From Metallosphaera sedula DSM 5348 (GTDB lineage: Archaea; Thermoproteota; Thermoprotei_A; Sulfolobales; Sulfolobaceae), in assembly GCF_000016605.1 (NCBI RefSeq), contig NC_009440.1, positions 558,001 to 622,000 of the forward strand: a DNA stretch of 64,000 bases. The letters run 5' to 3'. Shown here one piece after another: positions 45,447 to 48,570 of the stretch (position 1 is its first letter; each line of letters starts with the position of its first letter). Under the pieces are notes generated by a model that saw nothing but the letters and a program-made list of their open reading frames with translations, had not been told where the DNA came from and searched no databases. Made by a program: the position numbers and the translations under genes.

Positions 45447-45869
45447 ATGTCAGAGAGAGATAAACTCTATCACGTGCTACTGGACAGGCTTTATGCGAAG
45501 TTGCCCAAAAAGGACCTAGCGTCAGAGACCCAAACTCTTCCCACACTTTCCATCATCAACGTTGGAAACACTACTATCATAAGGAACTTCAGTGAGTACT
45601 GCGATAGAATTAGAAGAGAAGACAAGATCTGCATGAGATACCTGCTGAAGGAACTAGCTGCTGCGGGATCCATTTCTGAAAACGGACAGTTGATGATTCA
45701 AGGTAAGTTCTCAAATGCCATAGTTAATACCTTCATGGACAGGTTCCTAAAGACCTACGTTCAATGTTCCACGTGCAAGAGCCTAGACACCGTCCTTGTC
45801 AAAGACAAGAAAATATGGTATATTCAATGCCTAGCCTGCGGTGCCAAAAACCCCGTAAAGCCACTGTGA
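45447..45869 (+). CDS. Translation initiation factor aIF2 subunit beta
   Basis: 140 residues. An N-terminal helical part (1-30), a core alpha/beta domain with 'GNTTIIRNFSEYCDRI' and 'GSISENGQLMIQGKFS', and a C-terminal zinc ribbon 'YVQCSTCKSLDTVL' plus 'IQCLACGAKNPV'. Subunit of the heterotrimer that brings initiator Met-tRNA. First gene of a translation operon (DUF424, NMD3, RNase HII, DRG-like); gap to DUF424 is four bases. TATA-like GATTATATAG at 45420-45430. Confidence 0.96.
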   Translation: MSERDKLYHVLLDRLYAKLPKKDLASETQTLPTLSIINVGNTTIIRNFSEYCDRIRREDKICMRYLLKELAAAGSISENGQLMIQGKFSNAIVNTFMDRFLKTYVQCSTCKSLDTVLVKDKKIWYIQCLACGAKNPVKPL

Positions 45870-45873
45870 GATA

Positions 45874-46170
45874 ATGAGAGTAATTCTAAAGATCATAAGA
45901 GGAGAAGGTCACGTCTTCGTAAACATTTGCGAGAAGGAGTACCTTGGAAGGGAGTTCAGGGAGAGCAAGGCGGTCCTTAACGTGAACAACGAGTTCTATG
46001 GAGGAGAGGAAGTGGACATCAACTACGCCCTAGATCTAGTGGATGAAGCTACCGTGGTGAGTATAGTTGGGGAGAGGGCAATCGGAGAGGCCATAAAGAG
46101 GGGCCTTGTCCACAAGGATGCCGTGTTGACCGTTTCAGGGGTGAAGTTTGCACAGATCTATAATCTGTGA
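45874..46170 (+). CDS. DUF424 family protein
   Basis: 98 residues. The family is short, archaeal and typically sits between aIF2-beta and NMD3, as here. Recognised from the 'VFVNICEKEYLGREFRE' N-terminal part, 'FYGGEEVDINYALDLVDEATVVSIVGERAIGEAIKRGL' in pieces (FYGGEEV, ALDLVDEA, SIVGERAI). No motif with known catalytic meaning. A role in translation initiation or ribosome assembly is inferred from the conserved location. Confidence 0.88.
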   Translation: MRVILKIIRGEGHVFVNICEKEYLGREFRESKAVLNVNNEFYGGEEVDINYALDLVDEATVVSIVGERAIGEAIKRGLVHKDAVLTVSGVKFAQIYNL

Positions 46171-46871
46171 TGGAAATGGGAGGAAAGTTCTGCGTAATGT
46201 GTGGAAAGGAGGACGTAAAACTCATAGGTAGACTATGTCCCTCGTGTTACGTGAAATCGAGGGAGATGGTGAGGGTACCCAGGAGCATGTCTATCACGGT
46301 TTGCAGAATTTGTGGTTCCAGGAAGCTTAAGGGAAAGTGGGTAGCTCCCAGGGGGGATATCTCCTCATCACTAGAGGAGGAGATAATCTCGGCGCTAGAA
46401 CTGGACGAACACGTGCAGGAGTACCATGTGGACGTAGGGCAGATGTGGTCAGACACTCACGGTAATAATCACTTTCCATTAAGGATTTCAGGTTCAGTTG
46501 AAGGAGAGAGGTTTGACGAAACCAAGGACGTTATGGTCAAGGTTGAAAGCACGTTATGCGATTCCTGCGTCAAGAGGAGGGGGAAATACTACGAGGCGAT
46601 AATCCAGCTGAGATCTAGGGAGGGCAACCTGGGACTTGACGAGAAGAGGTTTTTCGAGTCCTTCTTTTCCAGGGAGGACGCGGAGAACCTCTCGGACGTG
46701 GTGGAACTTAGGGAGGGAGTTGATTACTACTTCATTAACAGAACTGTGGCCAAGAGACTTGTGGCCAAGTTCGCCAGCGAAGTAAAAGTAGAGATGAAGG
46801 AAAGTTACCAAAGGGAGAGGATAAAAAGAGGTAAAAGGGACGCGAAACTAGTTATCTCCCTGAGGCTATGA
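46167..46871 (+). CDS. NMD3-family 50S/60S export or maturation factor
   Basis: 234 residues, shorter than eukaryal NMD3 (about 500) because the export C terminus is absent. Four zinc pairs appear: 'KFCVMCGKE', 'RLCPSCYV', 'TVCRICGSRK' and 'TLCDSCVKRR', the classic archaeal NMD3 N-terminal zinc pattern, followed by an OB/ribbon domain. It would bind the large ribosomal subunit in assembly. Starts GTGATG at 46167, overlapping DUF424 by 4 bases, and its stop overlaps the RNase HII start. Confidence 0.93.
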   Translation: MMEMGGKFCVMCGKEDVKLIGRLCPSCYVKSREMVRVPRSMSITVCRICGSRKLKGKWVAPRGDISSSLEEEIISALELDEHVQEYHVDVGQMWSDTHGNNHFPLRISGSVEGERFDETKDVMVKVESTLCDSCVKRRGKYYEAIIQLRSREGNLGLDEKRFFESFFSREDAENLSDVVELREGVDYYFINRTVAKRLVAKFASEVKVEMKESYQRERIKRGKRDAKLVISLRL

Positions 46872-47494
46872 GGATAGGGATAGATGAAGCAGGGAGAGGA
46901 TGCCTAATTGGACCTATGGTAGTTGTAGGGGTTGCCTTGAACGAGAGGTCTATTGTAGCTCTGAAGCAGAGTGGAGTTAAGGATAGTAAGAAACTTACTC
47001 GTAAGAAAAGGGAGGAACTATTTGACCTGATACTCTCTGAAAGCGAGGGAGTAGCTGTAGCCAAGGCTCTTCCCGAGGAGATCGACAACAACAACCTGAA
47101 TTCGTTGACCTACACGAAAGTGATAGAGATTATTGATGCGCTATCTTGGCTCAACCCTGAAGTTGTAACAGTGGACAAGGTGGGGAAAGAAATCGAGGTG
47201 ATAAGAGCGATAGAGGATCTAGGGTTCAAACCTAACGTTGTACACAAGGCTGATGAGCTATTTGTTGAGGCTAGCTCTGCCAGCATTGTTGCTAAGGTAA
47301 TAAGGGATAGGTTAATAGAGTCATTAAAGAAGGAATTCGGGGACTTTGGGAGTGGGTACCCATCTGACAGGAAAACCGTTCAATGGGTACTAGACTTAGT
47401 ATCCAGGGGAGAGGAACCACCAAATATTATAAGGAGATCGTGGAAATTATTACTAAAATACGCACCTGGATTTTACGTGAATAAGGTGAGCTGA
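46868..47494 (+). CDS. rnhB: Ribonuclease HII
   Basis: 208 residues. 'IGIDEAGRGCLIGPMVV' gives the first Asp-Glu pair of the active site; 'VTVDKVGKEIEV' and 'ADELFVEASSASIVAKVIRD' supply the third and fourth acidic residues with the conserved A-S-I-x-A-K. 'FGSGYPSDRKTVQWV' is the C-terminal family motif. Removes ribonucleotides and RNA primers from DNA. Typical archaeal size. Partner of NMD3 in the operon by a 4-base overlap. Confidence 0.96.
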   Translation: MRIGIDEAGRGCLIGPMVVVGVALNERSIVALKQSGVKDSKKLTRKKREELFDLILSESEGVAVAKALPEEIDNNNLNSLTYTKVIEIIDALSWLNPEVVTVDKVGKEIEVIRAIEDLGFKPNVVHKADELFVEASSASIVAKVIRDRLIESLKKEFGDFGSGYPSDRKTVQWVLDLVSRGEEPPNIIRRSWKLLLKYAPGFYVNKVS

Positions 47495-47496
47495 AA

Positions 47497-48570
47497 GTGG
47501 TCACTAACCTTCCTGCCGAGGCTAAGACCAAATGGCTAAGAGTGATGGACGCTAAGACACCTGAAGAGAAGATTAAGGCTATACAGGATTTCCTGAGTAG
47601 CGTACCTAAACATAAGGGAACCGAGAACCTGGTCTACTGGGCCAAGAGAAGACTATCTGAACTCAGGGAGGAAAGCGAGAAACAGAGGAGAAAGTCTAAG
47701 GGGGGAGGTCTGTCCTTTTTCGTGGAAAAGGAAGGGGCAGGTCAGGTCCTCGTGCTGGGGAGGGAGGAACTTAAGAATCCCCTGGTGCGCAGGCTCACCA
47801 ACGTAAAACAGGATCCTAAAGATTACCCCGTGCCCGCCATGACTTTCTTTGAGGACGCACCAATTCAGCTGGTCAATCCTCCTCAGATTATCCTGGATTC
47901 TAGGCTCATAGTAAGTAAGCTCCTTGGGTTAGCCAGGAATGCAGACTCTATCCTTTTCGTCGTAGAAGACCAGGAGGAATTCACTAGGATGAGGGAGTTT
48001 CTAGAGAATAACAATATCCTTCTGGGGAAACCAAAGGGAAAGGTCATAATAGAGAGATTCAGGAGCTCCAAGGAGGGACTCAGGATAGTTATGATGGGAA
48101 AATTGATTGGAACAACCGAGGACCAGGTCAAGGATTACCTTCGAGAGTTCGGTATTAAGTCTGCTGTGGTCAAGATAGTGGGAGAGGTTACCCTGGATGA
48201 CGTAGAGAAATCTCTCTTTGAAGCAATTACCTTTAAGCCTGCGGTAGTGGCCTCTGTTAGACCGTTCCAAGTTCCGGGAATACCAGTTGTTAACGTGGCC
48301 GACTTAGACGCCCTGAGAAGGGAACTATATCTCAGCCTTGATGTGATAAGGATTTACACCAAGGAGCCCATGGAGGAACCTACGAAGGATCCAATGTTCA
48401 TGAAGAGAGGGTCAACTGTCATGGACGTTGCCCAGAAGCTCCACAGCCAACTTTCCGAGAACTTCAAATATGCTAGGGTATGGGGGAAGTCAGCAAGGTT
48501 CCCTGGGCAGAGAGTAGGAGAGGACCACGTATTAGAGGACAAGGATATTGTGGAAATACATGTTAGGTAA
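47497..48570 (+). CDS. DRG-family protein with degenerate GTPase domain and TGS domain
   Basis: 357 residues. N-terminal helical region ('LPAEAKTKWLRVMDAKTPEEKI', 'SSVPKHKGTENLVYWAKRRL') is DRG-like, then 'GGGLSFFVEKEGAGQVLVLG', which in active relatives is followed by G-x-x-N-A-G-K-S. Here it reads 'GREELKNPLVRRLTNVK', so the P-loop lysine and serine are absent; D-T-P of the G3 box is N-P-P ('IQLVNPPQII'), and no N-K-x-D is seen. C terminus is a TGS domain (about 285-357, 'VIRIYTKEP', 'HVLEDKDIVEIHV'). Likely a pseudo-GTPase that still binds ribosomes. Last gene in the translation operon. Confidence 0.88.
   Translation: MVTNLPAEAKTKWLRVMDAKTPEEKIKAIQDFLSSVPKHKGTENLVYWAKRRLSELREESEKQRRKSKGGGLSFFVEKEGAGQVLVLGREELKNPLVRRLTNVKQDPKDYPVPAMTFFEDAPIQLVNPPQIILDSRLIVSKLLGLARNADSILFVVEDQEEFTRMREFLENNNILLGKPKGKVIIERFRSSKEGLRIVMMGKLIGTTEDQVKDYLREFGIKSAVVKIVGEVTLDDVEKSLFEAITFKPAVVASVRPFQVPGIPVVNVADLDALRRELYLSLDVIRIYTKEPMEEPTKDPMFMKRGSTVMDVAQKLHSQLSENFKYARVWGKSARFPGQRVGEDHVLEDKDIVEIHVR

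Follow-up and report, generated by a model that had tools for sequence, protein, structure and literature searches.

A DRG ortholog without a recognisable GTP-binding site in Metallosphaera sedula: a probable nucleotide-independent ribosome factor of the Sulfolobaceae

Introduction

The DRG family of GTPases, including its archaeal members, is already known (PMC8629797, PMC3510508). In the stalled yeast ribosome described in PMC8040806, Rbg2 sits in the factor-binding region: its TGS domain lies on h5/h15 of the 40S subunit, its S5D2L domain on the A-site tRNA, and its G and helix-turn-helix domains on the stalk base, the sarcin-ricin loop and H89 of the 60S subunit. The same source suggested that Rbg2 steadies the A-site tRNA and aids peptide bond formation. 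The function of Rbg1 was reported to need the helix-turn-helix domain, the TGS domain and the GTPase, and a GTPase-inactive Rbg1 mutant neither rescued growth nor bound ribosomes as strongly (PMC3510508, PMC8629797). In addition, the apex of the DRG helix-turn-helix domain has been described as carrying a conserved hydroxylated lysine (PMC8629797).

Here we describe a DRG ortholog from Metallosphaera sedula DSM 5348 that appears, to judge from its alignment, to be without the GTP-binding site; it is hereafter called pseudo-DRG. In the literature searched, most subscription journals lying outside it, no report of a motif-less archaeal or family-wide DRG was found, and nothing on the point came from the main text of a paper on the essential genes of S. 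islandicus (PMC6249222). An earlier classification paper could have noted such a protein.

Results

Genomic context

The DNA analysed (the window, 64,000 nucleotides) is part of a genome that forms a single contig of 2,191,517 bases, in which it covers positions 558001-622000. The open reading frame on which a sequence-only reading had commented was borne out, running from GTG at 47497 to the stop at 48570 (Table 1). The closest named relative is Metallosphaera javensis AS-7 (96% identity). The gene had been said to close a translation operon, and it is indeed the last of an operon-like run in the order aIF2beta, DUF424, NMD3, RNase HII and pseudo-DRG, in which neighbouring genes overlap or are separated by a few bases: RNase HII and pseudo-DRG are 2 nt apart, and 235 nt separate pseudo-DRG from the next open reading frame.

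Table 1. Features of the operon and of the pseudo-DRG gene, in window positions
Feature	Position	Strand	Basis or remark
aIF2beta (eIF2beta/eIF5-type domain), upstream operon gene	45447..45869	+	Pfam PF01873 (eIF-5_eIF-2B), E 5.2e-33
DUF424, upstream operon gene	45874..46170	+	Pfam PF04242, E 1.3e-26
NMD3, upstream operon gene	46167..46871	+	Pfam PF04981, E 2.5e-48
RNase HII, upstream operon gene	46868..47494	+	Pfam PF01351, E 4.4e-45; adjacency to DRG conserved
Pseudo-DRG (DRG ortholog without GTP-binding site)	47497..48570	+	GTG start, 357 aa, no internal stop
N-terminal helix-turn-helix region, aa 1-67	47497..47697	+	Rbg2 alignment; model helices 7-18, 22-35, 43-67
G1/P-loop remnant GREELKN, aa 88-94	47758..47778	+	One residue short, GK[S/T] lost, basic residue at the Walker lysine column
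Six-residue switch I deletion site, between D109 and Y110	47821..47826	+	Alignment
G3 remnant N-P-P, aa 127-129	47875..47883	+	D-x-P in sister families
S5D2L-like insertion, aa 161-229, bounds approximate	47977..48183	+	MMR_HSR1_Xtn match; strand/helix order in model
Place of G4 (NKxD), motif gone	48253..48267	+	~26 residues missing from the next stretch, compared with sister families
C-terminal TGS domain, aa 285-357	48349..48567	+	Pfam TGS; 15/15 order-conserved columns kept
Open reading frame after the operon, 279 aa	48806..49645	+	No Pfam match

The order DUF424-NMD3-RNase HII-DRG was conserved in 31 of 31 Sulfolobaceae genomes, and the aIF2beta gene was present in each of five longer Sulfolobaceae loci (L033-L035, L039 and L201, of which L039 and L201 come from one genome). 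RNase HII also adjoins DRG in the sister families f2, f4, f9 and f10, which keep the GTP motifs, and in two of three f11 loci; the pair is therefore older than the motif loss. No such pair was detected in the loci compared from f3, f5, f6, f7 and f8. The shared RNase HII-DRG pair supports the orthology of pseudo-DRG.

Relatives of the open reading frame after the operon were confined, among the loci compared, to the same genus (L003, L004, L033, +; L005, L072, -; L004 and L033 are one genome, and L072 duplicates L005). A search for repeats around the operon showed nothing, and no relative of pseudo-DRG was found on viral contigs.

Identity as a DRG protein

In a phmmer search against solved structures, pseudo-DRG matched yeast Rbg2 (7nrc; E 1.3e-26, query residues 24-354) and Rbg1 (4a9a; E 7.9e-24, query residues 21-354). 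The 'GGGLSFFVEKEGAGQV' lead-in and the TGS domain, which had been attributed to DRG proteins from the letters, were both present, the latter with a Pfam match at E 1.1e-17. Pfam MMR_HSR1_Xtn matched residues 193-251 at E 1.8e-5, under its curated cut-off, and the Pfam GTPase domain MMR_HSR1 was absent among the four families that matched at E values up to 1. The domain order is helix-turn-helix, S5D2L-interrupted G domain and TGS, and the S5D2L insertion aligns with that of the outgroup, between the places of G3 and G4. Rbg1/DRG1 and Rbg2/DRG2 (PDB 4a9a, 7rr5, 7nrc) share this order with pseudo-DRG, are homologous to it in sequence and give its best fold match, but they have the GTP motifs, whereas pseudo-DRG is without G1, switch I, G3 and G4. 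These data identify pseudo-DRG as the Sulfolobaceae ortholog of the DRG/Rbg ribosome-interacting GTPases, although it would not itself be a DRG GTPase.

The helix-turn-helix region contains P37-K38-H39-K40-G41-T42, of which P37, H39, K40 and G41 are kept at 90% or more in motif-losing and motif-keeping DRG sequences alike. K40 lines up with the second lysine of the yeast K-x-K, and we infer that it may be the counterpart of the conserved hydroxylated lysine.

An AlphaFold2 model of pseudo-DRG, built from an alignment of 21 sequences, had a mean pLDDT of 84.4 and a pTM of 0.65. Foldseek ranked Rbg1 and Rbg2 at the top; second-tier structural matches included YchF and HflX on the 50S subunit and Nog1 on pre-60S particles. 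VIA-align against 4a9a (Rbg1) gave Z 19.5 with 280 aligned residues and an rmsd of 7.3; the scored row covers residues 73-357, the helix-turn-helix fold match being outside it. Because the overall rmsd is high, the domain arrangement of the model is not settled. The G fold alone matched FeoB, Era and Ras-type domains at Z ~13 and an rmsd of 2.3-3; for small GTPases the rmsd was 2.5-3 over ~130 residues. The G-domain fold is thus predicted to persist, as the sequence-only reading had proposed for the rest of the fold.

Eukaryotic DRG proteins have DFRP partners (Tma46/Gir2). The DFRP domain PF16543 was found in none of 59 genomes of the order, but control genomes were equally silent, so that this result is no evidence of absence.

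The other TGS protein of the genome (L002, 400 aa) is a YchF/OLA1-type OBG GTPase, which resembles pseudo-DRG in combining an OBG-type G domain with TGS. Unlike pseudo-DRG, it has intact GKTNVGKS, LVDVAG and NKAD motifs; it starts at the P-loop strand, without the DRG helix-turn-helix, and belongs to a paralogous family and not to DRG.

Loss of the GTP-site motifs

The P-loop of sister families, for example GLPNSGKS, is aligned with GREELKN in pseudo-DRG, so that the column GxxxxGK[S/T] is reduced to a glycine, one missing residue and xxLKN. Six residues are deleted from the switch I of sister families (DYPYTT), and a deletion of ~26 residues takes the stretch with NKxD (G4) and SA (G5). Across 30 aligned Sulfolobaceae sequences, the first P-loop glycine column is invariant, one P-loop position is deleted in 29, and in all 30 the second glycine is replaced (by L, M, S or I) and a basic residue (K or R) stands at the Walker lysine column. 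At G3 the family reads N-P-P, N-T-P or similar. The P-loop of one Sulfolobaceae MAG (L034), GEDNSLKN, is of full length with L at the second glycine, and is perhaps an intermediate of the loss.

We scanned the DRG proteins of 31 Sulfolobaceae genomes (L003-L018, L056-L069 and L201) for motif strings. Neither Walker A nor hhDxxG was found anywhere in any of the 31 sequences, and none had an NKxD in register at G4; the YchF-like GTPase encoded by the M. sedula genome showed all three motifs under the same scan. The string [NT]Kx[DE] occurred by chance in six of the 31 (L008, L061, L062, L064, L066 and L067), and only one of these, TKFD at position 254 of L008, is close to where G4 would be. It is offset from the G4 register by one residue, and the sister sequence L009 has TRFN there. 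An alignment in which the motifs are shifted was looked for and was not obtained, and the proposed loss of P-loop, G3 and G4 held throughout the family. By alignment and scan, the GTP-site motifs of pseudo-DRG are lost and not displaced.

Fixation in the family and point of loss

The motif-less form of the DRG gene was found in 31 of 31 Sulfolobaceae genomes, representing 11 genera. A second, intact DRG, which the sequence-only reading had proposed to look for, was detected in none of these genomes with a profile of intact relatives; the next-best matches reached E 1.6e-15 or weaker and covered only parts of the G domain or TGS. Pseudo-DRG is the single, vertically inherited DRG of the Sulfolobaceae.

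In the order Sulfolobales, 115 of 117 genomes had a DRG match at E 0.001 or better, including G007 (2.3e-4) and G098 (5.8e-4), whose matches are too weak to count as DRG. G007, a genome of f8 that is 99% complete in 2 contigs, had no DRG match below E 1e-20, and the same-genus genomes G028 and G039 have one. Among 299 genomes of the phylum, 14 gave no DRG match, some of the 14 being fragmented.

DRGs from the other ten families in Sulfolobales (f2-f11) are orthologous to pseudo-DRG and mostly 42-55% identical to it. GxxxxGK[S/T] is kept in all 63 sequences read from these families, as is a G4-like N/T/S/GKx[DE], but most are without the G3 glycine; pseudo-DRG has none of the three. In a 55-row tree, from which, as from a 133-row tree, the G-motif columns were left out, the pseudo-DRG lineage branches within archaeal DRGs, and the six rows from Sulfolobaceae, among them the deep HS-7 lineage, group as a single clade (100/99) in which every member is motif-less. 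Since ten other families keep G1 and G4 and the Sulfolobaceae are one motif-less clade, the loss can be placed on the Sulfolobaceae stem, which gives the point of loss for which a comparison within Sulfolobales had been suggested.

Motif loss elsewhere in Thermoproteota

A set of 197 unique DRG proteins was classified after two rows had been dropped, a contig-edge fragment (L083) and a protein with a mis-set start whose motifs are also lost (L006); the sample is uneven and low-scoring families were picked on purpose, so the following class counts are not frequencies. GK[S/T] and a G4-like motif are both kept in 122 of 195. Nineteen keep the P-loop and not G4. The P-loop lysine is replaced by arginine, with G4 kept, in 14 (GxxxxGRS; L124, L126, L138, L140, L146, L147, L153-L156, L158, L161, L162 and L169), which are spread over many families of the phylum. 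Both motifs are gone in 40: 30 from Sulfolobaceae, three from f43 (L093-L095), four from f16 (L096-L098 and L102), two from f24 (L099-L100) and one from f31 (L076). In a further protein (L101; genome G183, f30), the P-loop GVTLSGKS is kept and most or all of S5D2L is gone, for a total of ~340 aa.

The motif-less DRGs of f43, of f16 and f24, and of L076 resemble pseudo-DRG in having kept the helix-turn-helix and TGS domains without the GTP motifs; they differ from it in their remnants and deletions, and their origins are independent of that in Sulfolobaceae. An f16 model (pLDDT 87.4) was also best matched by Rbg1 (Z 18.2, 276 aligned residues, rmsd 5.2). The 55-row tree requires four changes between the kept and lost states, a number that stayed at four across the 5-95% bootstrap range and in a quick 133-row tree, with long branches in the f43/f16/f24/f30 group. 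A single origin, with the 13 motif-less rows of the 55-row tree held together, was rejected (p-AU 3.4e-69). Complete motif loss has thus occurred independently at least four times in Thermoproteota.

The canonical G3 glycine is present in nine of nine DRGs of f13, f47 and f57, labelled Nitrososphaeria-like for their resemblance to eukaryotic DRG. Among the other Thermoproteota DRGs that are not in the lost class, the DxxG glycine is found in only 4 of 146 and is missing in 142. Such proteins, which have mostly kept the P-loop, may be unusual GTPases. Most outgroup DRGs are already without the G3 glycine, so the GTP site was lost in steps.

Selection and conservation by domain

Pseudo-DRG is under purifying selection. 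Of 12 pairs compared, five had usable dS, and their whole-gene dN/dS was 0.020, 0.023, 0.033, 0.048 and 0.088; dS was saturated in the other seven, which gave no whole-gene ratio, and had already reached ~1 in the pair L003-L004. The second G half was the weakest part, with a domain dN/dS of up to 0.30 in one pair.

We then took the columns with a conservation of 95% or more across the order's ten remaining families, and counted those kept at 90% or more in Sulfolobaceae. The helix-turn-helix (19/21) and TGS (15/15) are the best kept of all domains, followed by S5D2L (7/9), the first G half (12/18) and the second G half (1/5). Identity to the order in the two G halves was 34% and 17% for Sulfolobaceae versus 48% and 32% for family f10; in the helix-turn-helix it was 65% versus 68%. 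The comparison with f10 shows that the G halves of Sulfolobaceae diverged from the order more than usual and that the helix-turn-helix did not. The dN/dS values and the columns kept in Sulfolobaceae form the pattern of a protein freed from nucleotide binding yet still needed. Of the columns conserved at 90% or more across motif-losing and motif-keeping DRGs alike, 11 lie in the helix-turn-helix and 11 in TGS, two and one lie in the G halves, and S5D2L has none.

Discussion

Homology, alignment, motif scan, fold model, synteny and tree agree with the earlier designation of this gene as a DRG-like pseudo-GTPase. To this the present analysis adds that the loss is family-wide, that it recurred independently in the phylum and that it was preceded by a partial erosion of G3. 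We consider it probable that pseudo-DRG, a DRG whose GTP site was dismantled on the Sulfolobaceae stem and whose fold and ribosome-facing domains were kept, is a nucleotide-independent A-site ribosome factor. By analogy with yeast Rbg1 and Rbg2 and their domain contacts on the ribosome (PMC8040806, PMC8629797), it would still dock beside the A site, in the factor-binding region, with the helix-turn-helix and G fold toward the stalk base and sarcin-ricin loop, S5D2L toward the A-site tRNA and TGS on the small subunit. It would act by binding alone, steadying the A-site tRNA or the stalled ribosome, would bind no nucleotide, and its on/off cycle would be set by its affinity or by other, competing factors and not by GTP hydrolysis. 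The conserved helix-turn-helix and TGS domains are in line with such a factor, which is our leading hypothesis. The main argument against it is that yeast cannot do without the GTPase, so that the role may have changed, for instance to 50S maturation or storage. Two observations also speak against this reading: the G domain touches the 60S subunit in the yeast structures, yet it changed most in Sulfolobaceae, and S5D2L, which faces the A-site tRNA in yeast, has no column at 90% across motif-losing and motif-keeping DRGs.

An alternative is that pseudo-DRG has left elongation for subunit maturation or ribosome storage, acting with NMD3 as a static plug of the factor site or a placeholder on the 50S subunit. 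NMD3 and aIF2beta are its operon partners, the second-tier structural matches include YchF and HflX (50S) and Nog1 (pre-60S), and a protein with no GTP switch would suit a static job; the RNase HII-DRG pair, however, also occurs in families that keep the motifs and predates the loss, and operon company in archaea is weak evidence for a shared step, so we regard this role as unlikely. It is more doubtful still that nucleotide or another phosphate ligand is bound non-canonically through a remodelled pocket. The basic residue at the Walker lysine column and the invariant first glycine would be in keeping with such a pocket, but the G1 loop is one residue short in nearly all sequences and without its second glycine in all, switch I and G4 are deleted, G3 has become N-P-P, N-T-P or similar, and a yeast G1 mutant altered at the corresponding residues (GFPSVGKS to GFPSVAMN) was reported in PMC3510508 to lose nucleotide-induced stabilisation.

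That the gene is a decaying relic without function seems very improbable, although conservation is lowest in the second G half, whose ratio is raised in one pair: the reading frame and its operon are conserved in all 31 genomes, and whole-gene dN/dS is 0.02-0.09 in the five measurable pairs. Pseudogene decay was ruled out by these ratios together with the universality of the gene in Sulfolobaceae. We give hardly any credence to an alignment artefact or a sequencing error that shifted or frameshifted the motifs. The TKFD of L008, in one of 31 sequences, is the one point in its favour, against which stand the absence of Walker A and hhDxxG strings from all 31, the absence of stops and frameshifts, the same motif-less state in 11 genera and the TRFN of L009.

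The leading hypothesis of a nucleotide-independent ribosome factor can tentatively be extended, in a form that we regard as possible though doubtful: most Thermoproteota DRG proteins would be passive clamps of the A site or of tRNA without a GTP switch, the ancient core function being nucleotide-independent and the GTPase a dispensable timer. On this view the hydrolytic site would have been eroding since before the order Sulfolobales (with the G3 glycine gone, the P-loop lysine turned to arginine in several families and G4 lost in others), and it disappeared wholly at least four times.

DRG GTPases are found in archaea and across eukaryotes, and whole archaeal lineages have, on several occasions, kept the protein, its ribosome-facing domains and its place in the operon while deleting the GTP site. 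Because yeast requires the DRG GTPase, the loss of GTP binding could equally mean the loss of the ancestral function, and for the same reason the Sulfolobaceae protein is a natural test of a DRG without GTP. It can be regarded, together with the other motif-less DRGs, as a natural separation-of-function version of the family. S. acidocaldarius and S. islandicus, model hosts with genetics, are taken by us to belong to the Sulfolobaceae, and the question is therefore directly testable. If the Sulfolobus protein still binds ribosomes and relieves stalls, DRG would be structural in its core activity; if it does something else, the GTP switch would define DRG function.
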